DNA of 64,000 nt. Source: Haematococcus lacustris. Taxonomy: Eukaryota > Chlorophyta > Chlorophyceae > Chlamydomonadales > Haematococcaceae. The position numbers and the translations under genes are program-made. The DNA lies in NCBI GenBank assembly GCA_030144725.1, contig JASKMD010000008.1, positions 11,317,344 through 11,381,343 of the forward strand, in the 5' to 3' direction. Below the pieces are notes generated by a model. The model did not search any database. It was given only the letters and a program-made list of their open reading frames with translations, and had not been told where the DNA came from. Within the stretch, counting starts at the first letter, position 1, and every line of letters starts with the position of its first letter. Shown here one piece after another: positions 4,831 to 60,525 of this stretch.

Positions 4831-4831
4831 G

Positions 4832-8346: not shown

Positions 8347-10990
8347 GGCACTACTACCGGCAGAGCGGCATCACGCAGCACGCCAAGGTGTCCAATGCCT
8401 GGATGGCCGGCATCAAGCCCGAACACGCTGTGCTGTCGCAAGTCACCAACTACACCGCCTCGCTGCAGCGGTACCGGGAGTACGTCGCCATGACGCTGGT
8501 GACCTGGCCCGCCATGTGGGCCGAGCTGTCCAAGCCGCGCTGGTCCAACGCCAGCTTCCGGCTGTACCGATACAAGCAGAGCACGGTGGCCAAGTTCTGG
8601 GCTGAGGTGAGCAGGCCGTCACCTGGCCAGTGTGTGTGCTAGTGTGTGTGCTCACAATGTGTGCTTGTCTTTGCCATGGCTGGACCTGAGCTCACAATAT
8701 GTCTCTCCTTGTGTGCCTTGCCTGCAGACTGTGAGGGGTGCCAGGGTACGCTGCAACTCAGCAGCCACAGGTCGCCCCATAGCCCTGGCCTATGGGGCAG
8801 CAAGCTTCAGCGGCGGCGGCAGCAGGGGCAGCAGGGGTGTGCCCGTCAAGCACATGCTCAGGGAGGCATGCAAGCAGTTCCCAGGGAGTGTGGTGCTGGT
8901 GCATGAGTTTCGCACCAGCCGGGTCAGCTCTGCCCACACCGACGTGGTGGCAGGCCAGCCAGAGTCCTTCAGGTAAGAGACCTCAGGTGCATGTGCATTG
9001 TAGGAGTGGACTCATTACATAGCTGTAGAATGGCCCCTCACACTCAGGCGCCCCCAACATGGGGTTGGTAATATGCATGCAAGTACTCTCTAAATACTGC
9101 ATCGTTTTCGATAGCGTTTGGCACATCGGTAGCTGCAAATCAATGCGCGTCATCTGACCATCAGCGCACGACATTGGAGTCTTTGCTCGCGTACTGCCAC
9201 ATGTGCCCGCGAACAAATCACATCGGCGAGACGGGTCTCCTTGGCACGGTGAGCCACATCGCTGTGACCCCATCTACCTAGCGTAGTGAGCTGATTGTGC
9301 ACAAATGGAATGTCCGGCCAACACCCAACGCGATGTCTGCCGGGCGTGCAGGGCACCTTGACGGGGTGATTGAAACATCTGGGCGTATTCTCTTTCGCCG
9401 AACACACCATTTGGGTCGGCGCACACTAAGGTATCACCGGCTTACACCCCCCCTTCCTCCACTGTGTCCTCCACTGTGTTGCACCCGCTGCACCCATAGA
9501 AAAAGCGATACGTAATGTTTGTTCTTGACCCCTTGGCGCATCTGTTAAAACAAACCGCACGTTAAACTGCCCAGGCCTCTATCAGTTTGACATCTTCAAA
9601 GTGACATCATGTTCTCCAAGCAGAATCAGGGCCACGGGGCTGTGGGGTGGCAGTTGAGCTATGAAACTTTGCACGCAGGTGGATGGCATGTAGGGGACTG
9701 TAACTCTCAGAGGAGCCGAGTCCAAACTCGGTCATGGTGTGGAGTTGTGCGACTGACTGCATGGCCCTGGTCCTGAGATCGGCTAAGGGAGTTGGGGGTC
9801 CACTCCTACAATTTAGTCCCTGCGTTTGTCCCTGCGTTCTACCGACCTTGTCCGATCGGGCTGAAAATTTGATAGATGGCAGTTTTCAGAAAATAAAACA
9901 TATTTGTCAAGAAAAATATTTGGAAAAAGCCAAAAGCTGCTGCGCTGTGGCCCGCAACCTATCCCTGCACTTATCCCTGCACCTACGCCCCAGGGCCGCA
10001 GCGCAGCCGCCTTTGATTTTTTCAAAATATTTTTTCTGAAAAATATGTTTTATTTTCTGCAAACTACCATCTATCAAAATTTCAGCCCGATCGGACAAGG
10101 TCGGTAGAACGCAGGGACAAACGCAGGGACTAAATTGTAGGAGTGTCACAGACCAAAGTGAGCTATTGACATATCTGAGTATGAGCGTGTGTAACAATGT
10201 CTAAAAGAAGCGTAACATAGTAAGTAGCATGCTGTAATTCCCAATGGTCGAGCTGTGGCATTGCCCTCTAGGTAAGGGGGGGAGGTGGGCTCATTGCCAC
10301 ATCGCCGCAACCGCTTTCCGATCCGACTGCTGCTGCCGACGCGCATGCGCATGTAGAGCAGCCTAAGCGACGAAGGCGGTCGCAGCGATGACGGCATGCC
10401 CCGCAACGGCCCATATTTGAATCACTAACTTTGATGCTTTGTTGTGCACGGCCTACTCGGTGTATGTTTATTCTGAATGGGTGAAAGGTAGCTGGCTGGG
10501 TTGGCTACATACTGAGCCAGCTAGCATTGATATTGGCGCAGCGAGTGCAGAGTTACAGCCGTCCTACTACCAGGGGTCGGTTTACTGCCATTTTTTGAAT
10601 GTTGGGGGCGCCTGAGTCACACAGCTGTGAAATAGCCTCACACACCAACATGGCTTGACCTAACACTTGGTTTGGTAATCTTGCAAATGTGCAATGACAT
10701 GTATGTCGCCTTGCAGGTGGCGGCGCCCGGTGCGCAGCATGGCGACGCGGTCCCGGATTCGGGGCCTGATGTGCTCAACAAGCAACGGCATCAGGTTCTA
10801 CGATCGAGACGTGTCAGCCGCGCTCAACATCCGCCGCATTGCAGCCGGGCCGGGCCGCCCCCGCGAGCTCAGCAGCTGGGTGGGCCGCCCAGCTATGCCT
10901 AACCCAGGCAGACCAGGCCAGGAGTGGGTGTGCGTGCGCGACAGAGGCCTGCTGCGGAAGCGGCAGCGGCGGCACCAGCGGCAGCGATAG
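8347..10990 (+). pseudogene. Fanzor (TnpB-like) nuclease, C-terminal half (copy A)
   Basis: Three exons fit in phase: 8347-8606, 8728-8972 and 10717-10990 (stop TAG). Exon 1 gives the helical segment after RuvC-I (YYRQSGITQHAKVS...KFWAE). Exon 2 carries the RuvC-II block LVHEFRTSRVSS with the catalytic Glu. Exon 3 carries RuvC-III, FYDRDVSAALNI, with the catalytic Asp. A basic tail ends the protein. No RuvC-I (DPG) motif or N-terminal half is visible upstream, where the satellite arrays begin, so I call it 5'-truncated. The zinc-ribbon cysteines expected after TSR(V/L) are Ser in this copy. Intron 2 holds a fold-back MITE. Family assignment is firm from the RuvC-II/III spacing; activity is unlikely without RuvC-I. 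It may instead have a distant 5' exon that I cannot see. Confidence 0.8.
9801..10145. mobile_element. Fold-back MITE, 345 bp
   Basis: The two ends are near-perfect inverted repeats over more than 100 bp, beginning CACTCCTACAATTTAGTCCC on the left and mirrored at the right. The arms continue through CCGACCTTGTCCGATCGGGC and an AT-rich stretch. A short GC-rich loop lies near 9930-10010. There is no coding capacity. It sits inside the intron between the RuvC-II and RuvC-III exons of Fanzor copy A. A target-site duplication is not clear (at most TC). Confidence 0.9.
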
Positions 10991-11752
10991 TGACATGTGC
11001 ATCATGCCAAATAAAACAAACAATTCGATTGCCCCTTACAGAGGGGATGTGTGTGCGATAGAGTGTGCATAGGGTAGGATAGGGCTCTATCGACTCCTAG
11101 GGTTAGGGACCTAGGTTAGGGACACACACTGCCCACTACAGCTCAACCATTCTGGTGTGTGTGCCTGCAGCTATAATGAGATGCATTTAAAGGACCCATT
11201 AGAGCTGACAGCTGCAGAGTGGACTTTAGCCTAAAGTTTAGGAGGCGCGCCTGGGCAGCTCCGGGGTGGGCTGGCTGATCAGCAGGCACCTGACTGGCTG
11301 CTGCCCTGCAGGGGCGAGCTGTACAAGGACAGTGGTCTGACTCCATAGTGAGTATCTGCTTGGCATGGCAGCGTGCTGGGTAACTCAGCTGGACAACGCT
11401 TGATGTGTGCCTGATAGGATGTGAGAGCAAGAGCTTGAAGCAAGGCTTGAGCCAGTAAGCAGCATCCCCTCCTACAACTCCTATTCATCACAGCGATTCC
11501 GAACGTACGAAGCGGCGCCACGTCACACCTTGCGTGCCTCTGACTGGGTGCCTCTGCCTTATTACTTTTTGAGCAGTGCTACACCCGCTTGAGCGTCACG
11601 CACGCTTTTGTACTCGCGCATCGCTACATATTGAAGGTTGGTTGGCTGGCCGGTCCCACACCGCGCAAGCTCTAGCGACACCAGTGAACTGACCAGCTAT
11701 CTCATACGCACGGCATACGCATTTCAGTCCGCCAAGCAAAAAACCCCGAGCG
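10991..11752. other. Intergenic region between Fanzor copy A and the SDR gene
   Basis: It contains the duplicated SDR intron-exon segment described separately (11205-11412) and presumably the SDR promoter, although no clear TATA box is visible. Nothing else protein-like is seen. Confidence 0.5.
11205..11412 (+). repeat. Displaced copy of SDR intron 5 end, exon 6 and intron 6 start
   Basis: This segment matches about 13950-14137 inside the SDR gene, including the acceptor CCCTGCAG, the exon GGCGAGCTGTACAAGGACAG... and the donor TAGTGAGT. Divergence is low: several substitutions and a small indel near 11228. The copy lies about 340 bp upstream of the SDR start codon in the same orientation. 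Confidence 0.9.
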
Positions 11753-18483: not shown

Positions 18484-18503
18484 CCTGTGCAAACTACTAG
18501 GGC

Positions 18504-19262
18504 CTACGCATTGTTGCGGGCCCGGCCATCAATGCCCCGCCGGTACTCTGCAGCCCGGTGCAGCCGCTGCCTGACCTTGGGCAGCCGGTCATTGACCCGC
18601 TTGTAGCCCTGCTGGTACTCCTTGCCAACGGGTGGCAGAGCCTCCAGGTCATCCCAGCGGCACAGCTCCAGGGGGCGTTGCTTGCTCTCCCCAATGCGCT
18701 GGAAGTTGAGGCAGGCGTTGGTGTCCCGGTCCAGCCACCTGCCCCATGGGGGGGCCTGGGGCGGTGGCAATGGGCCAGGTGGGGCCTGGACTGGGGGCTG
18801 GGCAGGGGGAGGGGGAGGGGGTGGGGCCTGGGCTGGGGGGAGGGGAGGGGGGGTCTGGGCAGGGGCAGGTGGGGGGGCCTGGGCAGGGGCGGGGGGGGGG
18901 GTCCTGGGCAGGGGCAGGGGGGTTGGGCGGCACCTCATGGCACCACTTCAGGCCCCGCACACACTTAGCGTGCCGCAGGCTCCAGGCTGGGCGCAACAGC
19001 CGGTGGTTGACCTGGCCTGCTGGGGGTACCCAGTCTGCGGGCCTAGGGCGGTCATCTGGCAGGTGCAGCTCACAAGGCTGGCGGGCGTGCACAGACGAGC
19101 TTACACGGCTGGTGCGGAGCTCATCCACGATCACAAGCCTGTCAGGCCTGGGATCCGTGCTGGGCCTGCTGGGCTGCTCCACCACCTTGCGAAACCCCGC
19201 CCGCACCGCCCCAGCCTTCCACCCACCCTGGCTGAAGTAGCCCGCTCCCAGGTCTGTGCGGG
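18504..19262 (-). pseudogene. Fanzor C-terminal fragment (copy B), one frameshift
   Basis: Read on minus, one frame (to about 18950) gives the RuvC-II block with RLVIVDELRTSRVSS and the RGLKWC segment. A second frame gives WLDRDTNACLNF (RuvC-III) and the basic C-terminus, ending at 18504. The switch falls in a Pro-rich linker encoded by long G runs, including about 11 consecutive G near 18891-18901, so a homopolymer slip in the DNA or in the assembly could explain it. The upstream boundary fits an acceptor at about 19262. Just upstream, on minus near 19305, an ATG starts MPPRRKRKRKR, which resembles the basic N-terminus of other copies and could mark an internal deletion derivative. Confidence 0.75.
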
Positions 19263-19496
19263 GCAGACGGGGCGCTTGCGTTTCCTTTTCCTTCTCGGCG
19301 GCATCTCAGGGATTCAGCAACACCATCCAAGCGGAGTGGTCGTGCTAGGGGGTGCATCAGGTCGCCATCTAATCGGAGTGCCGGCAACCGGAGTGGGGCG
19401 GAAATGAGATCCATTACACAATCATTACTTAGCCGGACGAACTTGAAAATGAAATGTGTTTCAGTGTTTTGAGCGCCTACAATGGCCAGGCAGCCT

Positions 19497-19510
19497 TCAC
19501 TGTGCATCAA

Positions 19511-19541
<31 letters not shown>

Positions 19542-19950
19542 GGCCTTGGGTGGCTTGTCTCGCACCCCCTTGTAGCCCAGGCCAGGGTACTCCTTGCCCT
19601 TGGCTGGCAGAGCTGCCTGCTGTGTCCACCAGCACAGCTCTAGTGAGCGCCACCTGCTCTCCCCAATGCGCTGCATGTTAAGTGGTGCAATGCAGTCCCT
19701 GTCCAGCCACCTGCCTGGCTGTGGAGCCGGCTTGGCCTCGGCGGGCTGGGTGGGCTCAGCTGTCTGCTCAGCCTTGATGCGCTTGCCGCGCTTAGCTGGT
19801 AGGGAAGTCCTGGGTCCAGGCTCTGAGGCTGCTGGCTGTGTGTCTGCCTGGCTACTGCAAGGGGCCTGTGGGGGCTGGCGGGGGGCCACTACCGGACACC
19901 ACACCAGGCCCCGCACTGGCTGGTTACGCGGCTGGCTGGGCACTATAGGG
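19497..19950 (-). pseudogene. Fanzor RuvC-III exon fragment (copy C)
   Basis: A single open frame carries VRGLVWCPVVAP, a Lys/Ala/Pro linker, then WLDRDCIAPLNMQRIGES and a polyglutamine end. The catalytic Asp remains, but the canonical DRDxNAA is changed to DRDCIAP. Nothing of RuvC-I or RuvC-II is attached. A short stretch near 20075-20105 matches part of the central exon of copy D (near 22165-22195), so the copy is internally deleted or rearranged. After the stop codon it shares GTGAAGGCTGCCTGGCCATT with the sequence at 25222-25243, a likely element 3' end. Confidence 0.75.
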
Positions 19951-20277
19951 GATTGTATACATGAGCATCAGCATCAGCATAGCCTGAGTTAGTGGATCAG
20001 CAGGCGCAGATAAAGGATCAGCAGGATTACGTACATGGGACAGCAGGGGCAGGGTTGGAGGGGCAAATGGAAAGTGGCAGGGCAGGGGCAGGGTGTCCTG
20101 CAGGGGTGTGGGTGCAACATGTGCAGCACGGGGTCAGCTGTGGTCCAGGCCCCTTGGCATCAGGGTGGGGTACTCTGGCTGCCCGTCAGGGAGTTGGGAA
20201 GATACTAATTATTATGTTAGGGTTTTATTGGGAAGATACTAGTTTTTATTGGGAAGATACTATTGGGAAGATACTAG
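19951..20277. other. Spacer between Fanzor copies C and D with short repeats
   Basis: It contains GGATCAGCAGG repeats near 19992-20030 and four TTGGGAAGATACTA units at about 20200-20280. Near 20075-20105 there is a short match to the central exon of Fanzor copy D. No gene. Confidence 0.6.
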
Positions 20278-23200
20278 TTAGATAGGCTGCTGCTGCTGCT
20301 CCTGGGCCTTGGGGGGCTTGTCTCGCAGCCGCTTGTACCCCAGGCCAGGGTACTCCTTGCCCTTGGCTGGCAGCTTCCCCTGCTCTGGCCAGAAGCACAG
20401 CTCCAGCGGCCGCCACCTGCTCTCCCCAATGCGCTGCATGTTCAGAGCTGCATTGCAGTCCCTGTCCAGCCACCTGCCTGGCTGTGGTGCTGGCTTGGCT
20501 TTGGCAGCCTTGCCCTGGGCCTTGCCCTTGCCCTTGGTGGGCTCAGCTGCCCCTGGCTCAGCCTTGGTGCGCTTGCTGCGCTTGGCTGGCTGGGGTGTGC
20601 TGGGCCCTGGCTCTGAGGCTGCTGCCTGTGTGGCTGCCTGGCCGCTGCGGGGGGCCTGTGGGGGCCTGCGGGGGGCCACTACCGGGCACCACACCAGGCC
20701 CCGCACTGGCTGGCCACGCTCCTGGCTCCAGGCTGGGCGCACCAGGCGCTCTTCCACCTGCCCTGCTGGGGGCCTCCAGCCTGCAGGTCTTGTGGCACTG
20801 AGTGTGTCCAGCTCCACCTCACAGGGCTGCTTGCCATTCACTGCTGAGCTGACCCGGCTGGTGCGGTGCTCATCGACAAGCACCACCCTGCCCCCATCCT
20901 GGTCTTTGCCCCTGGGCCTGCACACCACCTTGCGGCAGGCACGCAGCACCGCATCAGCACCCCACCCACCCCCAGTGCCAATGGTAGCTGCTCCAAAGAA
21001 CACCACCAGCTGCTTGGCACACCCATGGCGCTTCATGGACAACTCCTCCATGCCCTCCTCCAACTGCAGCCATGCACACAAGGCACACATGTGGTGGCTG
21101 ATATGGTGGCACCAGGTTAGGCAGGGCACAGTCAAGTACTTTTTTGTTTCGTCACCTCTCAGTCCCTTTCCCTCCCTCCCTCCCACTTACCCACCCACCC
21201 ACCCTCACCTTGTTAAAGAACTACCCACCCACCCACCCTCACCTTGTTAAAGAACTGCTCCAGCGCCCGGTCCTGGGCTCCGTACAGCCTCAGCCGCTGC
21301 CGTGCCCACTTGGGGTCCAGGTACACCTCCCACACCGCATCCCAGGTGGCCAGGGTGACGGTGATGTGCTTCAGGTTGGCCTCCAGGGAGGTGCCGGCTG
21401 AGCTTGCTGCTGCCAGGTGCTGGAGGTGGGGCTTGATTGGAGCCAGCCACCGCTCTGTGTCACGGCGGGCATTGTTCAGGCCGCTGGCATGCTTCACCTC
21501 GCCCTTGGTCAGCTTCCACCGGCGCAGCTGGTCTGCCTTGAGCTGGCCTGTTGCTGGATCCCACACCCCAGAGGCTGCGCTGACTGCCTGGGTGACGCCG
21601 GGGTCGATGCCCACCCCAATCTGTGTGTCTGGGTCAAACACAAACTCACGCACCTCAGCTATGCCCCTGCCTATGTGGGGGAGCCCCACTGCATGAGCCG
21701 CTGCTGCTGCTGCACTTGGGCGGCTGCTGGTGCTGCTGCTGCTGGCAGCTGGAGGTGGTGGGGCTGGAGGAGGGGGAAGGGGGCGCGTGTAGTGCACGCA
21801 CACGCTGACACCATCGGTGTCCACCAACCTCTCGAAATGAAACTCCTTGTTGCGGAGCTTGTTGGTGTTGAACCACCTGGCCCAGTGATGGCTCAGTGCT
21901 GGCTGGGAGGTGAAAGCTTCCCGGGTTTCCTTGGTCAGGCCCAGCTGCCTGCACACCCCATGCAGCACCCTGCTGTCCACCTTGATGAAATGCACCCCCA
22001 CCCTGGCCATGGGGGTGAGGGTGAAGGGGGGTGGGCAGGTCAGGGTCCGGGGACCAACCCCACGCCTCTTGCCGCGCTTTGGCTGCCCTGGCACAGGGGG
22101 GGGGTGGGGCTGCTGCCACTGCTCTAGCCACCGGCACACATGCACTGCATGGCGCATGCGGCAGGGCAGGGGCAGGGTGTCCTGCAGGGAGCCTTCCTTC
22201 TTCATGCCCAGTAGGCGGCGGTGCTTGTTGGCCTCCTCTATCAAGTCCGCCACATGGCCCTTGTCCAGGGTGGCGGCCTTCAGCTCCGAGCTGTGGGCGT
22301 TGATGCCATACCCACACGCCATCCTGATGAACAGCTGCGCCTCCTCCCCGCTCCAGCCTAGCTTGGCCCTGGCTGCCTTGGCGTACAGCTTGACAATGCG
22401 CTCTGCAGGTCAGGTCAGGTCAGGTATCAGGTCAGGTATCAGGTCAGGCATCAGGTCAGATCAGGTCAGGTCTAGGTCAGGTCAGGTATCAGGTCAGGTA
22501 TCAGGTCAGATCAGGTCAGGTCTAGGTCAGGTCAGGTATCAGGTCAGGTCTAGGTCAGGTATCAGGTCAAGTATCAGGTCAGATCAGGTCAGGTCTAGGT
22601 CAGGTCAGGTATCAGGTCAGGTCTAGGTCAGGTATCAGGTCAGGTCAGGTCAGGTATAAGGTCAGGTCCAGGTCCAGGTCTAGTCACCATCATAACTTGC
22701 CTGGGTTGGAGTAGTGCTGCTGCATGGCCACCGCCAGCTGCATGGAGTGTGCGTCGATGGTGTTGGCGTCACCCGTCAGTTTGATGCTGCCCAGCTCCTG
22801 CAGCTTGGCCACAAGCGCCTGGTTGCTGGGGTCCTCAAAGGCTGGCATGAGCATGGGGTGGCGGTTGCACACATGGCGCCGCTGCAGCTGGTTGTAGCAT
22901 GTCTTGAAGTTTGGGTCGGCGAAGAACTTGCAGAAGTCTTTCAGCTGCCTGAGCATCAGGGGGTCCTCGCAGTCAAGGGGCAAGGGAGGGCCAGTGGGTG
23001 GTGCGGGTGCAAGGGCTGCTAGGCGGGCGCTGCAGCGCCTTTGGGGGGGTTGCGCGACTGGCTCAGGTTCTGACTCTGACTCTGACTCCGAGTCAGACTG
23101 TGGCTCTGGATCAGAGTCACAGTCTGACTCGGAGTCAGAGTCAGAGTCACACTCCATGCTGGCAGGCTGGGCAGGCTGAGCAGGCTGGGCAGGGGCCCGT

Positions 23201-23754
23201 GGGGGGAGTGGGGGTAGGGGGGGAGCATCAGGGGGTTGGGGAGGCTGCACGGCTGGAGGCTGAGGGGCGCTGGGGGAGCCTGGGGTAGGGTAGCCCACAA
23301 GGCAGGTGAGAAATATGCGCAGTACAAACAGCGAAGCGATGAAGCGGAGCTGAGAGTGGGTTTCAGCCCGCAGCCGGAGGTGCTCCCTCAGCTTGCGCCT
23401 GGTCTTCTTGCAGCCGCGCAGCACTGCGCCCTCGGGGACCTTAATCACCTGCAGCCAAGCACAATTAACATTTTGACAGGCCATTTCGACAGGCCAAGAC
23501 AAAAGGCGGGGTCAACACAAACAGTGCGGGGACACATAAGGCGGGAGCAGACCCACACCTGACGTTGACGCGTGGCCCAGCCATCACGGCGCGCCTGCCG
23601 TTGCTTGCCTTGGGCGGAACGAGACGCTGCGATGGAACCAACAGGAGCGACGGGTTATCTCACAGCGCGTAACTCACGTCTAGGGCTCACGTCACGGCTG
23701 GGGAGACGCACCTTTACGTTTCTTGTCGCTACCCTTCCGCTTCTTCTTAGCCAT
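20278..23754 (-). CDS. Fanzor-type RNA-guided nuclease, near-complete (copy D)
   Basis: Fanzors are eukaryotic relatives of transposon TnpB that use a RuvC nuclease and a guide RNA to cut DNA. Three large exons stay in phase: 23448-22701, 22402-21243 and 21063-20278, giving about 897 aa. A likely N-terminal exon starts at 23754 with MAKKKRKGSDKKRKG, a strong nuclear localisation signal, but its junction to the next exon is unresolved in my model. All catalytic positions are present: Asp in VGIDPGVTQAV (RuvC-I), Glu in VLVDEHRTSRVSS (RuvC-II) and Asp in WLDRDCNAALNM (RuvC-III). TDGVSVCVHY marks the WED-like strand before RuvC-I. The middle segment is Pro-, Asp- and Glu-rich. Zinc-ribbon cysteines are largely lost. 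The first long intron uses a GC donor and holds AGGTC repeats. Expression and guide RNA are unknown. Confidence 0.82.
21205..21254. repeat. Small tandem duplication of an exon-intron boundary
   Basis: CACCCTCACCTTGTTAAAGAACT occurs twice, the second copy at the 3' end of Fanzor copy D exon 3 (minus). The duplication therefore repeats the splice donor, giving two possible GTGAGG donors. Confidence 0.8.
22403..22690. repeat. AGGTC/AGGTATC pentamer-heptamer array in Fanzor copy D intron
   Basis: About 290 bp of GTCAGGTCAGGTATCAGGTCAGG-type units fill almost the whole intron between exons ending at 22701 and starting at 22402 (minus). On the sense (minus) strand it reads CCTGACCTGATACCTGAC and runs directly into the acceptor CTGCAG. 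Confidence 0.95.
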
Positions 23755-23789
23755 CACGCGATGCGCAGTGCGACGGGCGGTGGCTTGGG

Positions 23790-23995
23790 TTTCCCGTGAA
23801 AAATACACGCTCATGCCACTTCTTCATGCCAGCCTGCTCCTTCAAGTCAGCCACATGCTCCTTATCCAGGTGGCCCGCAGCTGCGACTCTTGGCGTCGAT
23901 GCCATACCCACACGCCATCCTGATGAACATTTGAGCCTCCACCCCGCTCTATCTCTGGCTGCCTTGGCAGAGCTTGACAAAGCGCTCTGCATGTG
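23790..23995 (-). pseudogene. Fanzor central-exon fragment (copy H)
   Basis: Minus-strand frames match the start of the large central exon of copy D: an acceptor TGCAG, a KAARDRAGW-like segment (KAARAKLGW in copy D), then MACGYGID and DKEHVADLK. Frameshifts and stops break it. It ends about 35 bp upstream of the copy D start codon, so the two copies are head to tail. Confidence 0.75.
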
Positions 23996-24002
23996 CATGC
24001 AG

Positions 24003-25218
24003 TCGCGTCGGGTCGGGTCGGGTCGGGTCGGGTCGGGTCGGGTCGGGTCGGGTCGGGTCGGGTCGGGTCGGGTCGGGTCGGGTCGGGTCGGGTCGGGTCG
24101 GGTCGGGTCGGGTCGGGTCGGGTCGGGTCGGGTCGGGTCGGGTCGGGTCGGGTCGGGTCGGGTCGGGTCGGGTCGGGTCGGGTCGGGTCGGGTCGGGTCG
24201 GGTCGGGTCGGGTCGGGTCGGGTCGGGTCGGGTCGGGTCGGGTCGGGTCGGGTCGGGTCGGGTCGGGTCGGGTCGGGTCGGGTCGGGTCGGGTCGGGTCG
24301 GGTCGGGTCGGGTCGGGTCGGGTCGGGTCGGGTCGGGTCGGGTCGGGTCGGGTCGGGTCGGGTCGGGTCGGGTCGGGTCGGGTCGGGTCGGGTCGGGTCG
24401 GGTCGGGTCGGGTCGGGTCGGGTCGGGTCGGGTCGGGTCGGGTCGGGTCGGGTCGGGTCGGGTCGGGTCGGGTCGGGTCGGGTCGGGTCGGGTCGGGTCG
24501 GGTCGGGTCGGGTCGGGTCGGGTCGGGTCGGGTCGGGTCGGGTCGGGTCGGGTCGGGTCGGGTCGGGTCGGGTCGGGTCGGGTCGGGTCGGGTCGGGTCG
24601 GGTCGGGTCGGGTCGGGTCGGGTCGGGTCGGGTCGGGTCGGGTCGGGTCGGGTCGGGTCGGGTCGGGTCGGGTCGGGTCGGGTCGGGTCGGGTCGGGTCG
24701 GGTCGGGTCGGGTCGGGTCGGGTCGGGTCGGGTCGGGTCGGGTCGGGTCGGGTCGGGTCGGGTCGGGTCGGGTCGGGTCGGGTCGGGTCGGGTCGGGTCG
24801 GGTCGGGTCGGGTCGGGTCGGGTCGGGTCGGGTCGGGTCGGGTCGGGTCGGGTCGGGTCGGGTCGGGTCGGGTCGGGTCGGGTCGGGTCGGGTCGGGTCG
24901 GGTCGGGTCGGGTCGGGTCGGGTCGGGTCGGGTCGGGTCGGGTCGGGTCGGGTCGGGTCGGGTCGGGTCGGGTCGGGTCGGGTCGGGTCGGGTCGGGTCG
25001 GGTCGGGTCGGGTCGGGTCGGGTCGGGTCGGGTCGGGTCGGGTCGGGTCGGGTCGGGTCGGGTCGGGTCGGGTCGGGTCGGGTCGGGTCGGGTCGGGTCG
25101 GGTCGGGTCGGGTCGGGTCGGGTCGGGTCGGGTCGGGTCGGGTCGGGTCGGGTCGGGTCGGGTCGGGTCGGGTCGGGTCGGGTCGGGTCGGGTCGGGTCG
25201 GGTCGGGTCGGGTCGGGT
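24003..25218. repeat. Pure (GGGTC)n array, about 1.2 kb
   Basis: Roughly 242 uninterrupted copies of GGGTC form the array; I see no variant unit inside it. It lies at the position corresponding to the intron just before the central exon of the Fanzor family, where copy D has the related AGGTC array. All six frames are open because the 5-bp unit encodes no stop (VGSGR or PDPTR peptides). Its purity suggests recent expansion or an assembly-collapsed tract. Confidence 0.97.
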
Positions 25219-38387: not shown

Positions 38388-38435
<48 letters not shown>

Positions 38436-43208: not shown

Positions 43209-46200
43209 TCAAGAGCGCAACGCGGTCTGCCGAAATGTGATGCTGATGCGCTCAGGGTCCAGCAAATCTTCGCTTGCGATGGCATGTGTATAGGTGTAGC
43301 GCGCGTCCTTACTGAGCACCTGGCACGCCCGGGGAGGCAACTCAACCACCACCTGCGGGCCAGCCAGCAACAGAGTGACCGCCCATCACACCGGCGAAGT
43401 TTGTAAACGCGCATCCGTGACCATCACTGGGACGAAGTCGAATGACCAGTAGAGCATTCGCCCTTGCGTGCAACCTCCATTCATATGCAGCTTAATCGCT
43501 GCCTCGACCACCCATGCCCACCTCGACTCCTGTCCGCTTAGCCAGCCCCGTCCCCACTGCGCCATCGCTTTCGACACCCGCAGGCAGCCAAGCCCTACCC
43601 GGTGTTTCGGACAGCGCTTGCTTGCCTCCCTCTGAAACGTCATCCGTGCGCGGCCCACAAGCGAAAGGGTGACGATAAGCTCGGTGCTAAGGAAACGATC
43701 GTCCATGTGGGGCGTCAGCTGATGCACCCCGCGTGTGTAGGCGATAGCGTTTGCCTCGCTTGGGCGGAAGCTACGGAGAAGGGGTAAGCAGTTGCGCATG
43801 CGAGCGGCAAGGGCGACTAACTCCTGCGGCAGGGGGTACCGCGGCGCGGACACAGACCGGGCCGCGAGGTTGACCACCACGCCCCATGCCTTGCCTCTGC
43901 GACGTGCATACAGCACCGAGGTACATAAAGCACCACCGGCAAATCACAGCCATAAATGACCCAGAGCCATTAAAAGAAGGGCTGGGCTCAGAAGTTGGTC
44001 TCTGCCCAGGCTTCAGTACTGGGTGGGTGTATAGAGTAGGCTACAACCTTGCTTGCCAGGTCTACGGCTCTCCATCACAATGTGTAGGTGCAGGTGCAGC
44101 AACAACAACAACAACAACAAGCAAAAACAGATAACGCCGTGAACAGCCCTCCAGTCCCTCACTAGGGCCTCCATTTTAGCCGGAACTAGCAGCCACTTGC
44201 AGCCACTAACTAGCTCCGGCTAAAATAGTGTTATTGGGCTGTGTGGAGTAAACCCAGTGCACTAATGGCACATGAGCCGCCTACCACCTACATGATTGCC
44301 TGACCCGAGGGCTATGCAGTAGACACGCTCATGTGAAATCACACTAGGCTGCCGGTGACCATGTGGCATGAATGAGAGACCTGCACGCCGTGAACAGTCC
44401 TGCACCCTCCACATCGCGCCATGAGCCCCATGCATCATGATGATGTATTGGAAAAGTTACAGCATGCATGGGCATGCAAGACTCAACCTGTACGGCCCGT
44501 TGATCCCCCGATGGCTCCATGCAGGTGGACCCTCCACCACATGCTGCAACCGCACCTCCTCCTCCCTGGCAAGGCAGACGTCCATGGCACAAGCATAGTG
44601 TGACTGCAATGACATCACACATGATCTGTTGTGTGCAAGCTGCAGAGAGCAGGTGTCCAAGTCGTGCCTCTTTTGTCTTGAACGCCCTAACCCTGAACAT
44701 GTGCGGCCCAGCTTCACTCTCACCTTCCTCTACCTTTCTCTCACTCTTCCTCACCATGCAGTCCCCTCACACCACCCTCATGGGCTTCCAGCCACGTCCT
44801 CACAGCCACTCCTACCGCTGCCCTTCGAGTCATTCTCTGAACACTCTGAACACAGCCAGCAGTGGGAGCACCCCATGCCCTGGCTGCTGCACTGCCACCA
44901 TGTGCTGCCATGATGCTGAGCACCCTGGCCTAAAGAACCCCACCAATGAATGGGCAGTACTGTTGCCTGGTTTTGAAGGCCACCTAAAGCCTCTGTGGTG
45001 CCGACAGCGGTTGACTTGCACGCCCTGCCCTGCCCTGCCCTGCCCTGCCCTGCCCTGCCCTGCCCTGCCCTGCCCTGCCCTGCCCTGCCCTGCCCTGCCC
45101 TGCCCTGCCCTGCCCTGCCCTGCCCTGCCCTGCCCTGCTCTGCCCTGCCCTGCTCTGCCCTGCCCTGCCCTGCCCTTTGCGGGTGGTTAAGGGGATGAAC
45201 TGGGTGTCCAGGCAGCACTATGGCCGGGTGTGGGGGGTGGCGGTGCTGTTGGGAGCAGGTTACCAGGGTAGGGGCGGGCCAAGGCGGTGCGGGAGGGCTT
45301 CCGTGAGCTGTGAGCCGGCAGACCCAACATCACCACCCCGGACAAGCTGGTGGTCATGGATGACACAGGCTAAACTAAACCTATCAAGCATCAGCCTGTT
45401 CTATTGGACAGGGGGCCCAGTGCTCCCAAGGAATGCAGTGTGCCACCAGGATGGGGTTTGCAGCTGTGAAGGGCGCCTTAACCAGGAAGTGGTAGCAGTG
45501 GAGGGAGAGTACCCGCAGGCCAACACCTTGGCAGGAGATGAGTTGCATGAGTGAGGGTGGTGGACCTGCGATCCCCTCTCCGGTGCAAGCCTCAGCCAAG
45601 CCACATGCCATGCAGACTGTCATCAAGCCACATGCCATGCAGACTGTCATCAAGCCACATGCCATGCAGGATGCAGGGTACCAGACGGCAAGCCTGCAGA
45701 CAGAACCCACGGCCTGCCTCACCCCCCACCAGCCCTGCCTTCCTATAAACCCACCATCAACCCCCTTGTCCCTCACTAGGGCCTCCATTTGAGCCGAACT
45801 AGTAGTGGCCACTAGCAGCCACTAGCGGGAATACTAGGGACCACAGCCATGGAGGACCATCAGCCATCCGGCCCCGCTGGCCCACCTGGTGATGAAGTCG
45901 TGCAGCAGCCACTCGCCATGCAGCTCACCATGGGGCACGGCACGCATGGCGCGCAGGGGCAGCGGGTCGAAAGGTGGGGGTGGGGCCGAGGGGGGGCTGC
46001 GGAATAGAGGCAGGGGAGGGGCAGGAGCTCCACCCCCCAGGCCGTTGTGTGGTGTGGGGTCTGGGTCAGGGGGGAGGGAGGCGCTGGTGCAGGCTGTGGG
46101 GGGGCTGTGGGTGCCCTTGCAGTGGGTCAGGCCAGGCAGGCAGGGAGGGGAAGGGTGGGGAGTTGGGGGTTGTAGCCGCCCACATGCGTCACCATGCGTG

Positions 46201-47151: not shown

Positions 47152-50100
47152 ATGCATACTGGCACTCTGGGCACGTGCCATCTACGCCAGCTCCAACATC
47201 ATCGCTACCAGCCATGCAAAGTCCAGTTTCCCCGACACCTGCGGCCTAGCGCCCTGAATCCTGCGGGAAACCAGCCGGAGCCCCAGCCAACCCCCCAGCC
47301 ACGTCAACATCAGGAGCAGCAGCAGGATGCATCGCAGCAGGCGACCCTGCTTGGCCCTATCCAGGGTATGCAAGACGTCCAAGAAGCTGCCGCAGAGTCA
47401 AACTGCAGCCGGCTTCGCCCTGAGTCAGAGAAATCATCCAGCTCTTCATCGTACCTCGCAGCAACGCACCCCAGCCAGCCTTCCCTCCTGCCCTCCCTCT
47501 TGCGCCATCTTGACCAGCACTGCATTCCACTATTCCTGGTCACTGGCATTCTAGCCGGCCTGGCACAGCCTGCCTGGGGCACCGCCGCTGCCGCTGCCGG
47601 CGCCACCCAGCTCATCACCCAGGCAGTCTTCGTGGCCTCAGGCCTACAGTTGAGGCAGGGCGAGGCAGCCACAGCCCTGGGTGCATCTGGTGAGGCCCTT
47701 CCCCTCATCACCCCTCGCTGTCTCCCTCTCTCACCCTTCCACCTTCTCACCCTCATATATCTCACCTTCTCACCTCTCACCTTCTCACCCTTTCATACCA
47801 CCCCCCATCAACTCTCACCTCTTTCCTCCTCTCCACCCTCCCAGTACGCCCCCTCCCTCACCCCTCCCTCACTGCACTCACCGGGTGTCTGCTCTCACGC
47901 CCAGGGTCACTGGCTTTCGGCCTGGCCTCCATCCTGCTGCTGTCGCCCCTGCTGGCCGTCCCCCTCCTCCTCAGTGCCAGCCAGGTGCTGCCGGTCAAGC
48001 CTGCCTTGGCTATGGGCACAGCCGTGTTTGCAGCCATGCCCACCACCCTGTCCTCCGGCATCACCATGACCACCGCAGGTAAGTGGTGGTGGGCCCTGAC
48101 CCCAGGCTCCACCTAACCTGGACCTAGACCAGGACCTGGGCTGGCTGGCTGGCTGGGGTGCAGCTGCTGCCTGGGGTGTGTGCACAGCCAAGCTATGACA
48201 GCCCCACAAGAGCTCCACAGCTCCACAGGTCCAGCTGCTGCCTGGGGTGTGGGGCGTGGCATGCGGGGTGTGGGGTGTGGGCACAGCTGAAAAATACACG
48301 CTCATGTGAAATCACACTAGGCTGCCGGTGACCATGTGGCATGTGGCGAACTCCTGCTTGTCACAGCACACCTCCGTGGTCGGGGCCCTACAACAGCCCC
48401 ATAGCTCCACAGGCAACACAACAGGGTCAGGTGCCCTGCTCGCCCTCCACAGAACAGGCTTTCACTGCTGGGTGCTGCGACCGCCTGCGCTGTTGCTGGC
48501 TGCAGCGGGGGGCAACACCGCCATGGCCATCCTGCTGACGGTGTCGTCCAACGCCCTCAGCGTGCTCACCCTGCCCCTGCTGCTGCCGGCCTTGCTGGGC
48601 CCTGCACTGGGCGGGGGGCTGCAGCCCCTCCAGTTGCTGCAGCAGCTGGTGACCACGGTGCTGCTGCCCACGGCAATAGGTGGGGGCCGTGCTTGCATGG
48701 CCACAGGGGTGGCAGCATTGTTAGTGCTGTGGGCACTATTGGCATTAGCCTGGCTGCCGGTGCTTCTGCTCTGCTGACATACGCAACCCCCGCAGCTGCA
48801 CCACCTGCAGCTGCTCAAGTTGGCCTGCCTGGGCTGCTGCACGCTCGCCTCTTCATCTTATGCTTCATCTTACATTCTTACATCTTATCTTATTCGCTGC
48901 ATCACTTCTGTTAGCACCTTGGCCCTCAACCTAGAGCCTTCATTGCAATGGAACACTAAGTGTGGTCCTCTAAATAAACGGTGTTTTTGTCTGCGTGAAG
49001 TTTCCATGCACATGGCATGCCACCTACCCTACACTAATGCCTGACCCTGGAAGGCTATGATGTAGAGTTGGCATGACAAACATGCGCTAATTGTAAGCTG
49101 GTGACAGCTCAAGAGGGGAGGGGCGCACACTACTGTGCCTCAGCGGGCTGGGTCTTAGGTGACTTGTCTCGCAGCCACTTGTACTCCAAGCCTCCTTGCC
49201 CTTGGCTAGCAGCAACCCTTGCTCTGGCCATTAGCACAGCTCCAGTGGGCACCACTTGCTCTCTCCACTGCGCTGCATGGTCAGCGCTGCGTTGCAGTCC
49301 CTGTCCAGCCACCTGCCTGGCTGTGGTGCTGGCTTGGCTTTGATAGCCTTGCCCTGTGCCTCAACTGCCTGCTCAGCCTTGGTGCGCTTGCTGCGCTTGG
49401 CTGGCGGGGGAGTACCAAGCCCAGGCTCTGAGGCTGCTGGCTGTGTGGCTGCCTGGCTACTGCTTGGGGCCTATGGGGGCTTGCGGGGGGCCACTACAGG
49501 GCACCACATCCGGCCCTCACTGGCACCTCCAAAGGGAACCTTCAAAGGGTGTGGTTATGACGATCTCTGTCAGCACTGTGCTGGTTGTGGTTGCTTGGAG
49601 GCTGTGTGGGGCTGCAGCCTACTCCATCAGCTGTACTCGCTCTCCTATCGTCTTGCCTCCCACTAGGCCTTGACCCTGACCCTGACCCTGACCCTGACCC
49701 TGACCCTGACCCTGACAGCTGTCGTCTTGCCTCCATCAGGCGCTGCTTGCCTGGCCCTTGGTGCTGCAGGTGCTGCAGCCAGGGGCCTGCTCCCGGGCGT
49801 TGCCACTGCTGTGGACAGCAACCGCCGTCTGCTGGTGCTGTTCAACGCCACCTGCCTAGCCAGCATACCGTGGATGCAGGTATACCTTTAGACTCCTCCT
49901 GCCACTGCTTCGGGGGGGAGGGGGAGGGGGAAGGGGAGGGGGAGGGGGAGGGGGAGGGGGAGGGGGAGGGGGAGGGGGAGGGGAAGGGGAAGGGGGATGG
50001 GTGAGGTGCCGAGGTACTTGCGACTGACGTCCTCCCCCCTCTACAGGTCAGCAAGGCGGCTCAGGCGGGTCTGCAGCTGCTGCCAGCTGACCTGGTCTGC

Positions 50101-51970: not shown

Positions 51971-52217
51971 TAATGACTGCAGAAGGCCAGATAAGGACTC
52001 CTTACATAGGCATATAGGCTGCTTGATACAACAGACTTTGCATGGGCATAATAATGTAATACTCTCTGTAAACTCCCAAAGCCTGTTAATACAATCCTAA
52101 CTTCAGGATACATGTCTAAATCCAGGATACATGTCTCAATATACACTAATCCAATAATGCAAACAAACAAAACTAACAATTCCTAGTATTTGTGATGGCT
52201 TGACGATGTTGTTTTCT

Positions 52218-53801
52218 ATGGCTAAGAAGAAAAGACGAACCGTGCCTAGGCCAGTGCCGGAGGACCCGGACAGTGACATTGAGGACCGCGACGAGGCACT
52301 ACAGCCGGACCTCACCGAGGCGCAGCGGAATAGAAAGGCTTCCGGAGAGGCCCGCGCTGCCCGCGATAGGGATAACACATACCACGCAAGAAAGGCCAAG
52401 TTAGCCCACCTCATCGACCACCTCCCGCAAGCGCTTTGGGATGCCTTCCTGGCCGACGCTGTGCAGCCACGAGTGGAGGCCATCAGCGAGCGTGGGGTGC
52501 TCGCCAGCCTGCTGTTGGGCTTACTCGTGCGCGGCTTGTTTACCATTCGCGTAGCCGACCCACTGGGCCTGCACGACCAGCCCGTGTACACAGACATCCC
52601 AGTTTCCCAGGCAGCCATCCCGGACCTGAGCTGCAGGAACCTGTTCCTGCAGCTGGTCCGCGGCCTGCCCGGAAACGGCGCAAACACTCAGCCAAACGCG
52701 GCAGTGGCTGCCGTGCTGGCCGCGCACCCTGACCTCCGCGCCCGCCTCGCAGCAATCCCCCGCCACCTGTCTGACACCAACATGGTGGACCACGTCGGCA
52801 AGCAGCTGGAGACAGCTTTCAGCAACATGCTCACGCTGCTCTTCGCTGGCAGGCTCAAGAAGTCTGTGTCCCTGGCTGGGGCAAAGGTCCTGGTGGGCAC
52901 TGAGGAACACCGGCGCAGATTTGGATTCTGGGGGGTCGAGGGTGGTGGGCACCTGCCAGCCTGGTCAAAGCGGGAGTGCACCTATGTGCGCCGCTTGGTG
53001 TGCGGCCTGGACGTCAGCTGGCTGGTGGGGGAGGGTGGGGTGGTGCCGACTCCAGCCATGCAGGCTGAGGTGGCTTTGCAACGGGGCCTGCTGGGGCTTG
53101 AGGAGGGGGAGAGGGTGGATGACGACTGGGTGGAGGATCCAGTCAACCGGGGCCGGCTGCTGCGCCATGCGGTGCACACTACCAGAGAGATGGAGGCAGC
53201 CATGGCAGCCTGGCAGCTGGATATGGTGCCTTGGCAGCAGGCTGAGCTCACCAACCCAGGGCTGCTGCCAAGGCCCCCCCGCCCCCCCACACCCTATGCC
53301 CTCACCCCCACCAGCAAGTGCCAGGCTCGGCATGTCTTCATAGACACCAAGGGCCTATACGGCATGATGCATGACGCCGGCATGCGGGGGGTGCTGACGG
53401 AGGAGGGGGTCACCTCCTTGAAGAAGTTCAGGAACGGTGCCCTACCTGACCCAGCGGTGCCGGGCAACTTCATTGCAGGGCCCAAAGACAGCCACGTGAG
53501 TGCTACTTGCAGTCAGGTGCTAGCCAGTCCTCAGGTGCTCCGTCAGCTGCCATGTGTGCTGTCACATGCCTTGTGAGCCTGCAGTCAGCTGCCTTGCGCC
53601 TGCCTTGTGAGCCCACACAAGCTAATGAAGTGCCTTGGTATGTGCATATGGTGGCTACAGGTGGCCAACCGATGGGATGCATTGCTGCCTGACCCTCGCC
53701 GCCAGAAGCTCGCTAGCCCCAAGCACAACTTCGCGCAAATCGTGCACACCGATGGAGTCGCCATCAGCGTGATGTTCAGAGTCGCCATCAGCGTGATGTG
53801 A
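52218..53801 (+). CDS. Fanzor N-terminal half without nuclease domain (copy F)
   Basis: Two exons, 52218-53495 and 53661-53801, join in phase to 472 aa with no internal stop. The start is MAKKKRRTVPRPVPEDPDSD, a nuclear localisation signal followed by an acidic stretch, parallel to copy D. The body is helical. ARHVFIDTKGLYGMMHDAG and the later HTDGVAISVMF correspond to VGVHFIKVDSRVLHGVC and DTDGVSVCVHY of copy D, so this is the recognition/WED half. The reading frame ends within an 18-bp duplication (VAISVMFRVAISVM) just before RuvC-I should begin. No DPG, DExRTS or DRDxN motif follows. It is either a truncated transposon or a shortened protein kept for RNA or DNA binding. The openness over 426 codons of exon 1 favours recent origin or selection. 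Confidence 0.78.
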
Positions 53802-53890: not shown

Positions 53891-54067
53891 ACGCTCCTGC
53901 CAGTCGGCACTCATAGAGGTGGGTTGCAGAAACATCACTGCTAAGCCCAGGCTTGCACACATGTGGCCTTGCCATGCCTGGTCTAGGTCGAAACCCTGGC
54001 ACCACGGCCATGCGCTACGTGTGGGATGGAAGCCGGGTGACTGCTATGGACGAGGCACTAATATGGC

Positions 54068-54555: not shown

Positions 54556-54776
54556 AAAGAGAAATCCTGCTCGCTGCTGAAGTAACGCCAAGCCAAGACC
54601 ACGCAGCTCAGCCGCGACCTCCTGTGCCTCCCATTCTAGCTAACCTTTAACGCCATTTCCGTCTCTGTACGTCTCAATTGCTAACTGATACCGTGCTAGT
54701 GCAGCCTAGCACGACCCAGCTGGACGACCTTGCCGTAGTGCGTGTAGGTTAGCTTCTACCTAGCTCTGCTGGCGAT

Positions 54777-57700: not shown

Positions 57701-59007
57701 CCTAAATCCCCCTCCCCATGCCCCCCTCTCTGCCTTACCCCTCTTGCCTGAATACCCCTACCCATGCCCCCCTCCCTGCCTTCCCCCAGCCCCCCAAACC
57801 ACCCTCCCTGTACCTGCCCCCTGCCATGGCCTGTGTGGCCCGCAGTCGCCCAAGTACGCCTCAGTGCTGCTGGGCCTCACAAACCTTGCGGGCAGCCTGC
57901 CCGGCATTGTGGGCGTGGCCACAGTGGGCCTGCTGTACGACGCCACAGACTCTTGGCCCATCGCGCTGTTCCTGCCTTCAGGGGTGAGGGGGGCGGGGCG
58001 AGGGCAGGGGCGGAGGCAGGGGTGGAGGCAGGGGCGGGGCGGAGACAAAGGCGGGGCGGGGGCCGGGGCTGGTGCCCAGGTGCAGCCCCTCAGCAGTGGT
58101 GGGCGATGGCTATGGCTGGGCGTGTGTCTGGGTATGTGAATGGCTATTTGTATGGCTATGGCTATGTCTATGGCATGTGTGGATGACGCATGTGAGTGAG
58201 GGCTAGACTGAGGCTGGGGCTGCAGCAGTGGCATGGCTGGGGCAAGGGCAGGGCACGGGCAAGGATGGGGTTGTGGCATGGGCACAAGGGGAGCAAGAAT
58301 CGGAGCAGGGGTGTGCTTTACCCTGCATGGCTGAATGTAGCACTGGGTGGTGTACTGAGGCCTGACATGAGCATGACCTCAGCATGTGACATGATGCATG
58401 CCTGAACCACAAAGTGACACTGGTGCAAATACACTGTCACAGACGCATCGCACTATTCTCGAGTATATCATCTTTATGCATGCAAGCCTTGCTCCATTGC
58501 AACAAGGTGTGTTACCTGTGCTTTCAGGTGTTGATGGTGGGTGGTGCAGCTGTGTTTGGGCTGTACAGTCAGCACGAGCCCGTTGACTTTGACGCCCTGG
58601 ACAACAGCCCTTTCCCTATCGAGCGGCAGCTGCAGCGGGCCTGGCAGGGCAGTGGAGCAGCCGGAGTCATGGCCGGCGCCCAGGCCTCCTTAGCGCCTTC
58701 ATGGGCCAACATACAGCGCATGAGGGAGGTGGCCGCCCGCCAGCTGAGCAGGTGGGGTGCCTCTGGGCAGGCAGTGGGGGCCCGGCTGGTGGCCAAGCTG
58801 GGGGTGCCGGCAGGCGATGGCGGTGAGGGTGGTGGGGTGGAGGCGCCGGGGGGCCAGCAGCAGGCGGCAGGGAGGGCCACGGAGCCTAGGGCGCAGCCGG
58901 CCAGTCAGACGGTGCGCAGGTCGCTGTGGGGCCAGCTGGGTGGCAGCAGGGCGGCAAGGCGGCAGGGCAACTCTGCAGACTCTGGCTCCAAAGGGGACCG
59001 CCAGTAA
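54777..59007 (+). CDS. Plastid MFS anion (phosphate) transporter, ANTR/PHT4 type
   Basis: ANTR/PHT4 proteins are SLC17-like major-facilitator carriers that move phosphate or other anions across plastid or Golgi membranes. Eight exons, all in phase, give 648 aa: 54777-55056, 55135-55247, 55388-55585, 55893-56295, 56743-56969, 57438-57545, 57846-57983 and 58528-59007. Residues 1-75 are rich in Ser, Thr and Arg, fitting a chloroplast transit peptide. The hallmark after helix 1 is NMDKTNFTIAVIPMGLEMGW, then TTAGLVQSSFFWGF. Later landmarks are GLCLTRALMGAGEAVAPSAI and KYASVLLGLTNLAGSLPGIV. About twelve hydrophobic segments are visible. The long C-terminal tail of about 130 residues (Gln, Gly and Ala rich) is an unusual extension. 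The usual family Arg/Asn at MDRxN is Lys-Thr-Asn here. Confidence 0.93.
56640..56742 (+). repeat. Intron 4 module with CTGACC array before the acceptor
   Basis: CATCAGCTGTACTCCCACTC then CTATCGTCTTGCCTCCCACTAG precede a short (CTGACC)n array and the real acceptor CCCCGCAG at 56742. About 60 bp match 49627-49690 in the BASS4 gene almost base for base, although the host genes are unrelated. Confidence 0.85.
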
Positions 59008-60248
59008 GCCTTGCTCAGGCACTGACCCACTGTGTTGGTTGGGTCGGTGGGGTTGGGGCGGCAGTTGGCCCTCTGCAGCCACAGCCATAGCTTCAGCCTG
59101 CAAGAGTCAGGTAGGGTGGTGGGGGCTGGTTGAGAACCGCCTGTGAAGCCCCAGCAATGTGAGGCCCATGTGCAGCCTCAAGCCCCGGGGACATGGAGGG
59201 GTGGGTGAGCATGGAAGGGTGGGTGAGCGCTGCTGATGTGAGTGGGGGCAGAGCCCTGTGGCATTGTATGAACTGCACCAGCCAAGCGAATGGCGTTGAG
59301 AGCGTGCTCTGGGTTTTCTTCTGGACACAGGGGCAAGGCCCAGCTGCAGCAGTGTGATTAGGAAGTGGGCCGGTGGCGTTGTAGTGCTCCTCAGCAGCCC
59401 TCCCTGCTGGGTTTCCACCCATTGGTCAGCCATTTTGTGGTTTGCATATGTCCAGCCCTGACCTTAGCCCTGCACCGTGCTGCACCGCTGCGGTGCTGCT
59501 GCTTACAAACACTATAGGGGTGTGAGCCTCATGTGCATCCTCACTCCTGTCATACTTTGTGATCTCCTAAACCTTCCAATGTATATGTCATGGCACATTG
59601 ACCTCTATGGAGTGTGAGAGAGAGTTGCGCTCCCTGGCACGGGCTTATCTGAGATGCTGGTGGGCAGGAGGGTGGGGTGTGTGACCACAGTGGTCACAGG
59701 TCATGCATGAGAGAGTGGGTACCAGTGTCACTTGTAATTCTCAATGCAATTCTCCATGTCAATCAATCATGCAATTGATTTTCCCCATGCATGCAAGTGT
59801 GCATGTCCTGACCAGTGTACGCTCTTGCTTCCACCTTGGTGATGGGCGTGGCTTGCAGTTGTATCTGGCACGCATGTGATGTCGTGCATAGAGAGCTGGG
59901 AGCATGTCATGCAGTTCATGCAACGCTCCAGACAGGTGCATGAGATGGAAGGGAGCATAGTGTCGTGCTGTAAGTGGCATGTTCTGGAAGAGTCTGAACT
60001 TGGTGAGAGAGGGGCGCTCATGGCACCGTTGAGAAAGGAGGTTGGGTTTTAAAGGATGCGTCCATTGTTTTACAGCCTGATCTGCATGCCGGCTCTTTAC
60101 GCTCTCTATGACCCTCAGTTTTTCATTTGATCTGCTGTGGGCGTGGTGTGTGTCATTGCGACTGGCTTGACTGCTCGCCTGTTCCAGATGTTACAAATAG
60201 CTCCTCCTTGCCATTGCCACTCGTGCCAGAGTCATCACAATCTAGGAT
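59008..60248. other. Intergenic region
   Basis: Holds the anion-transporter 3' UTR. GAAGGGTGGGTGAGC-type repeats occur near 59195-59235. No protein-like frame or RNA gene seen. Confidence 0.5.
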
Positions 60249-60525
60249 CAGCGCAATAGAAAAGCCTTCGAAGAGGCCCGCGCGGCCCGCGACAGAGACA
60301 ACACCTACCACGGCCGGAATTGCAAGCTAACCCACCTCACCGGGTACCTCCCGCAAGCGTTGTGGGATGTCTTCCTGGCCGCCGATGCGCTGCCACGAGT
60401 AAAAGCCTGCAGCGAGCGGTCGCGGTCCAGATGTCATTGTCGGGGTCTTCCGGCACTGGCCTAGGCACGTTTCGCTTGTTTTACAGCGTGAGGCAACTAC
60501 AAATACTAGGAATACTTAGTTTTGT
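60249..60525. pseudogene. Folded-back Fanzor N-terminal scrap (copy G)
   Basis: 60249-60421 matches codons about 35-93 of copy F in the plus direction (RNRKAFEEARAARDRDNTYH and PQALWDVFLA). Immediately after, 60428-60520 matches the reverse complement of the copy F start region (about 52165-52285), including GTGCCTAGGCCAGTGCCGGA in inverted form and the upstream TTCCTAGTATTTGT. The piece is therefore a hairpin-like rearrangement of an element 5' end. Confidence 0.85.

Follow-up and report, generated by a model that had tools for sequence, protein, structure and literature searches.

Fanzor-like pieces in the Haematococcus window

We analysed a stretch of 64,000 nt from the green alga Haematococcus lacustris (contig JASKMD010000008.1, positions 11,317,344 to 11,381,343), hereafter the window, which carries repeated pieces of a transposable element with a Fanzor-like gene. 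Pieces were sought with two profile hidden Markov models, built from 29 proteins (lineage 1) and 25 proteins (lineage 2), against the six-frame open reading frames (ORFs). Furthermore, blastn with the complete 3,698-bp element as query supplied flanks and non-coding pieces. We found eight Fanzor-like coding pieces by profile and two 3′-end-only pieces by blastn, ten pieces in total. The first-pass annotation of this DNA had placed nine copies or fragments between 8347 and 60525; its outer limits fit, but its count becomes eight coding and two non-coding pieces. Reversed sequence was the control for the profile searches, and nothing below E 0.1 was obtained in the reversed window (best domain E-value 0.1, both profiles), nor did an earlier lineage 1 profile match there. 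In the following list, U is a coordinate within the complete 3,698-bp reference unit, and the piece at 20-23.8 kb is taken as copy D of the first-pass annotation.

20278..23809, minus strand: copy D, lineage 1, nearly full element (U 44-3440); profile match 20284-22403 and blastn
21597..21605, minus strand: RuvC-I DPG of copy D (GVGIDPGVTQ), by motif
20857..20874, minus strand: RuvC-II of copy D (VLVDEHRTSRVSS), by motif, with Ser at the first zinc Cys position
20446..20466, minus strand: RuvC-III of copy D (WLDRDCNAALN), by motif
8340..10987, plus strand: lineage 2 piece, 5′-truncated after RuvC-I; profile matches 8340-8973 and 10709-10981
18507..19335, minus strand: divergent lineage 1 C-terminal piece; profile match 18564-19233, RuvC-II at 19108-19125, RuvC-III at 18711-18731
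19431..19967, minus strand: C-terminal piece of lineage 1, matching U 3004-3439 at 83% identity; profile match 19521-19937 and blastn
23832..24128, minus strand: internal fragment of lineage 1, matching U 1211-1534 at 74%, which overlaps the beginning of a GTCGG array; profile match 23883-23948 and blastn
44144..44384, minus strand: ORF-less 3′-end-only piece, in which U 3518-3697 lies at 44144-44323 and the remaining 61 bp are other sequence; blastn match 44143-44323
45758..45824, minus strand: 3′-end-only piece, U 3633-3697; blastn
49019..49524, minus strand: C-terminal piece of lineage 1 (U 3021-3565) that has in-frame stops and extends into the 3′ non-coding region; profile match 49234-49518
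52167..53780, plus strand: lineage 2 N-terminal half, from MAKKKRR (52218) to just before RuvC-I; profile match 52218-53780
60171..60525, plus strand: lineage 2 N-terminal fragment; profile match 60249-60422

The RuvC-II and RuvC-III motifs reported at first pass could be located in the pieces at 20-23.8, 18.5-19.3 and 8.3-11 kb, and RuvC-III alone (49285-49305) in the piece at 49 kb. In the 8340..10987 piece, RuvC-II and RuvC-III lie near 8.9 and 10.8 kb, respectively; VHEFRTSRVSS and DRDVSAALNIRR are present in the 8.9 and 10.8 kb frames. The 1.7 kb between the two motifs holds an inverted repeat (9801-10145; 153-nt arms, 92% complementary, 39 nt apart), which is possibly a fold-back element. 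Within the 60171..60525 piece, 60249-60418 is direct and 60419-60525 inverted relative to the lineage 2 5′ region at 52167-52492. At 24002-25218, the pentamer GTCGG is repeated 243 times where the first intron of copy D has a CAGGT pentamer tract, and this array may be an expanded intron tract of the neighbouring fragment.

Judged by its reading frame, only copy D among the window pieces could still encode a protein that contains RuvC-I, -II and -III. It is part of an annotated H. lacustris protein, QJQ45_017515 (P0007), with 100% identity over 98% of the query region. Its exon 1 runs from 23448 and is followed by exons at 22402-21243 and 21063-20278, with small upstream exons according to QJQ45_017515. 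That model ends exon 1 at 22773 (GT donor 22772), and several relatives likewise join IKLT to ERIVK. The frame is open with either exon 1 end, giving 897 residues after splicing when exon 1 runs to 22701 and 24 fewer with the annotated splice. A perfect 34-bp tandem duplication (21188-21256) lies across the exon 2 donor and creates two possible donors. The model, which begins MSVYF..MAKKKRKGSDKKRK, extends into two C-terminal pieces downstream of copy D and thus fuses three copies. Relative to the unit, copy D spans U 44-3440 at 93% identity; it is missing the first 43 bp and the last ~258 bp, after U3440, including the terminal hairpin, where a guide RNA would be expected. With both element ends gone, it is therefore not an intact mobile element, and its earlier designation as a potentially active member is not supported beyond a frame that is open once spliced.

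Fanzor features and the missing zinc finger

The molecular fingerprint given for Fanzor proteins is DPG in RuvC-I and an alternative glutamate six residues before the zinc-finger position (PMC10711439). We found both features in both lineages. RuvC-I reads GIDPG in lineage 1 and GVDPG in lineage 2 (D in 27/28 and 24/24 ungapped rows), and the glutamate occupies 28/28 and 23/23 ungapped rows, respectively. The Fanzor/TnpB motif described earlier consists of D-X(125,275)-[TS][TS], a C4 zinc finger between RuvC-II and RuvC-III, and RD in RuvC-III (PMC3627910). The spacing from RuvC-I to RuvC-II fits this pattern (133 pairs, median 184, range 81-575, outliers taken as found), the RD motif is present (D 29/29 in A1 and 24/25 in A2), and the D-E-D triad is kept in both lineages. 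The zinc finger, which is strictly conserved according to the first Fanzor definition and part of that published motif, is gone: CxxC occurred in 0 of 182 segments between RuvC-II and RuvC-III (168 of 240 relatives, zinc positions unconstrained), and the six residues after the alternative glutamate are followed by Ser, not Cys, in 179 of them. We therefore name the proteins Fanzor-like, not canonical Fanzors.

The pieces at 8.3-11, 52-53.8 and 60 kb fit the lineage 2 profile much better. The two lineages are homologous over 476 columns (hhalign 99.96%, E 7e-39, profile identity 34%), with RuvC-I, -II and -III in register between their alignments, in agreement with the earlier proposal of one or two related lineages. 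Of 7,983 candidates scored in a protein database search with the lineage 1 protein, 651 reached E 1e-3 or better; the best 120 of the 651 were all from H. lacustris and sit on many different long contigs, suggesting that the family is spread over other contigs. A query joined from two lineage 2 pieces found 247 proteins, and the best 120 of these were also all from H. lacustris. In several annotated relatives of both lineages, among the matches listed, unrelated Pfam domains are attached to the Fanzor-like part, apparently because a high-copy repeat led gene models to be fused. NCBIfam gave nothing relevant for seven relatives, and an IMG/VR scan with the lineage 2 alignment revealed no relative. 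A motif pattern designed to recruit viral Fanzors for comparison matched one contig, L001; its sole ORF of at least 150 amino acids lay outside the match, and the candidate was dropped.

PF07282 scored above its cut-off in three relatives. Furthermore, SpuFz was the best match of a lineage 2 structure model of poor quality (~12% identity in Foldseek), standing alone on top in both fold comparisons. Together with the fingerprint, these results uphold the first-pass assignment, and homology of the proteins to TnpB/Fanzor-type RuvC nucleases is well supported. Proteins unrelated to Fanzor, with motifs that arose by chance in proline/alanine-rich, GC-rich coding sequence, would account for the low-complexity parts, the lack of a PDB profile match and the weak Pfam score of copy D. 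They would not account for three ordered motifs and a fingerprint shared by two lineages, for the Pfam and SpuFz matches, or for the silence of reversed sequence, and we consider such a coincidence highly improbable.

The complete element, its copies and their abundance

A head-to-tail array with a 3,698-bp period was found in L009, a sampled stretch of the window's contig, and in the adjoining L023. Its 12.6 kb contain five whole or partial units, of which two are complete, one has an internal gap, one runs off the edge of the sequence retrieved and one is 5′-truncated. Matches to the reference unit are 98.2-99.9% identical, and the junctions read ...GGGGGCTG-T-GGCCCTGTTCCC... The complete element measures 3,698 bp and consists of the gene and a structured 3′ end of ~250 nt. 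Its exact 3′ end recurs with unrelated flanks in L016, L018 and L012 and at window positions 44144 and 45758, and its exact 5′ end recurs in the internally deleted copy of L012. Beyond the array, 13 matches lie at the 3′ side of the unit (5 at the exact end) versus 2 at the 5′ end, and four truncated copies there have the exact 3′ end. The copies are 3′-biased and 5′-truncated, and the repeated insertion proposed at first pass is supported.

The sole full-ended copy, in L012, has flanks without a target-site duplication. The 44-kb piece has the direct repeat TTCACGGCGT on both sides (44134-44143 and 44385-44394; its length is 10 bp provided that CTG is the end of the element), with the 61 bp of other sequence inside the upstream repeat. 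A full-ended copy without duplication, found together with 5′-truncated copies that have an intact 3′ end, is the pattern of Helitron2-like elements. Compared for the asymmetric terminal inverted repeats of Helitron2 elements, the two element ends have just a short match (score 14). Target-primed reverse transcription with a borrowed long interspersed nuclear element (LINE), as in short interspersed elements, usually leaves 5′ truncation and variable target-site duplications, and the 3′-biased, 5′-truncated copies and the one 10-bp duplication are what it would produce. However, intron 2 is retained in the truncated copy of L017, and the end of the deletion in L012 lies at a short repeat instead of splice sites, which speaks against retroposition. 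Introns are also kept in copy D, the tandem units are exactly head to tail, the shared 3′ end is without poly(A) or a simple repeat, and the single full-ended copy is free of duplication. Spread by a borrowed LINE thus seems quite unlikely to us.

The last 258 nt of the element, including the last codons, fold at -106.9 kcal/mol (z -3.19, with 0 of 200 shuffles as stable), and the fold is dominated by a terminal hairpin, TTTTAGCCGGA...TCCGGCTAAAA. Among four copies, pairing is preserved in 96.7% of pair cells, with one pair changed on both sides (U-A to G-C). The omega RNA of known Fanzors lies at the 3′ end of the element, and by analogy the 3′ tail of the Haematococcus element may act as one.

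Abundance was estimated from twenty 10-kb stretches of the window's contig (C476), taken at 1-Mb steps from 0.5 to 20.5 Mb minus the 11.5 Mb point (200 kb of one contig, including 500 N). With the same profiles and a cut-off of E below 1e-3, the family was present in 9 of the 20 stretches and in 0 of the 20 reversed stretches. With blastn added, 18,197 of 200,000 bases were covered (9.1%, bootstrap 2.3-19.7%) and formed 19 clusters, three being antisense self-hits inside L009; in the window, 8,085 of 64,000 bases (12.6%) were covered in 9 clusters, including one antisense self-hit. Leaving out self-hits, there are 16 clusters in 200 kb versus 8 in the 64-kb window (0.8 versus 1.25 per 10 kb; the unpruned sample has a bootstrap range of 0.45-1.5 per 10 kb). 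The single array of L009 accounts for over half of the bases covered in the sample (9,952). Extrapolating 19 clusters per 200 kb to the genome gives ~29,000 (14,000-46,000), an order of magnitude only, as three self-hits are counted and one contig was sampled. The sampled contig is about as rich as the window, and the special Fanzor-rich nest envisaged at first pass is therefore rejected. The cluster is ordinary for its contig, and the abundance itself is the surprising part.

The window is eukaryotic in character, with a GC content of mostly 0.55-0.65, introns with CAG acceptors and numerous tandem repeats. These include a minisatellite of ~41 copies of a 42-bp unit (4830-6527) and a tandem array of AGTACTGTAGATGTCTAC-like units at 7398-8131, which also matches its own reverse complement. 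A direct repeat of ~200 bp (11208-11410 and 13950-14141, 89% identical) had no match to the Fanzor-like profiles. The region at 61581-62843 matches parts of P0045, a relative whose record has a reverse transcriptase domain (PF00078), and is probably another transposable element. Rfam at gathering thresholds found nothing in the window, and a phage DNA comparison of one 8-kb piece of it gave no match.

Interpretation and known systems

Collectively, these data make it reasonably probable that the pieces are what remains of a DNA element that is very abundant in H. lacustris and apparently non-autonomous, and whose sole recognised gene encodes a Fanzor1-like RuvC nuclease without a C4 zinc finger. 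The element would be copied from its 3′ end by rolling-circle, Helitron2-like machinery supplied by another element. Its 3′ end would be transcribed as an omega-RNA-like scaffold, and the protein would then cut DNA with the same sequence as that adjoining a copy. Within the window, protein could come from copy D, but guide RNA would have to be supplied by other copies, 3′-end-only ones included.

Several results weigh against this interpretation. Among truncated copies with the exact 3′ end, one of three testable ones has a target-site duplication (44143 yes, 45758 and L016 no; L018 was left out because of N), and two copies with an imprecise 3′ end (L003 and 49019) have none. Neither TTTT nor a T-rich tetranucleotide, the target of Helitron2 elements, was seen in the flanks ...GGATTGGCTT and ...GGACTG of the two sites whose 5′ side could be defined. 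The 3′ structure shows weak covariation, with a score that 60 of 500 shuffles reach and that is therefore just suggestive. Identity is 0.86-0.96 in the 3′ non-coding part versus 0.87-0.93 in the coding part, and thus no extra constraint on the tail is shown. For the protein, PDB profile searches with both lineage alignments gave no Fanzor at E up to 10. PF07282, the TNB domain, had 0 matches at E 0.001 in the alga's own genome, and the last exon of copy D reaches just E 0.016 against it. AlphaFold models were poor (predicted local distance difference test, pLDDT, 30.2 for lineage 1, P0024, and 38.9 for lineage 2, P0135), and Foldseek with the lineage 1 model returned no Fanzor and nothing relevant among the best 50 of 109 matches.

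The main rival is that these are Fanzor descendants no longer guided by RNA, that is, an unguided RuvC nuclease or a passenger frame on a high-copy element after loss of the zinc ribbon. The absence of CxxC from all segments, the undetected canonical TNB domain, and the stops or truncations in array units and several copies would be expected of such a degenerate protein. The triad columns are no better conserved than many others in lineage 1, and because lineage 1 columns are conserved in general, triad conservation is uninformative on selection. Retention of the triad in two lineages at 34% profile identity and the open frame of spliced copy D point the other way. When copy D is compared with the divergent piece at 18.5-19.3 kb, the ratio of nonsynonymous to synonymous substitution rates (dN/dS) is 0.64-0.67, as decay would have it, but it is 0.37-0.45 when copy D and the pieces at 19.5 and 49 kb are compared with one another. 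The ratio does not decide between a guided nuclease and a degenerate or unguided one. RNA guidance without the zinc ribbon is putative, and we regard the loss of guidance as rather less likely than not.

A bolder reading, to which we give little credence, is that a Fanzor-derived clade functions despite the missing zinc ribbon and is now a dominant repeat of the genome, its coding copies providing the nuclease and its ORF-less 3′ ends the guide. Each 3′ end in the array adjoins the 5′ end of the next unit, and guides would therefore aim the nuclease at its own family. If true, array growth and the great number of truncated copies would both be tied to RNA-guided cutting.

Copies in 9 of 20 stretches offer many natural guide ends, an array and 3′-end-only copies with which to probe the role of Fanzor for its transposon. 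A zinc-less clade would also show which parts of the enzyme are dispensable, and it could escape the published search pattern, which includes the zinc finger. A search of one literature collection on Fanzor, including green algae and Helitron, gave no paper on this Haematococcus family among the matches listed. Helitron had 0 occurrences in a term search of the Haematococcus genome paper (PMC10400597), which was also absent from the matches for Fanzor in Haematococcus.

We compared the element with known systems. In Chlamydomonas reinhardtii, CRe-1, CRe-2 and CRe-3 are non-autonomous Helitron2 elements that carry Fanzor1 (Bao and Jurka 2013, PMC3627910). They share with the Haematococcus element a green algal origin, an intron-containing Fanzor-type gene, copies often 5′-truncated or with internal deletions, and full-ended copies without target-site duplication (one such in Haematococcus). 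A duplication of similar length at a truncated copy, with extra sequence after the 5′ duplication, is also common to both (PMC3627910). The Haematococcus proteins differ in being without the C4 zinc finger, the TTTT target of the Chlamydomonas elements was unseen at two Haematococcus sites, and the Helitron2 likeness of the Haematococcus element rests on traits of its copies, not on ends matched to an autonomous Helitron. Moreover, 150, 70 and 35 loci are named for the Chlamydomonas elements (PMC3627910), whereas Haematococcus apparently has many more. SpuFz1 of Spizellomyces punctatus, the best fold match of lineage 2, is likewise multicopy with ORF-less ghost copies, but it has a CCCC zinc finger and 30-nt inverted repeats (PMC10432273, PMC11423790). 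In Auxenochlorella, interspersed repeats make up just 3.4% of the genome and the element is called uncharacterised; as in Haematococcus, however, a Fanzor element has become prominent in a green algal genome, where it is the most abundant repeat (PMC12636532).

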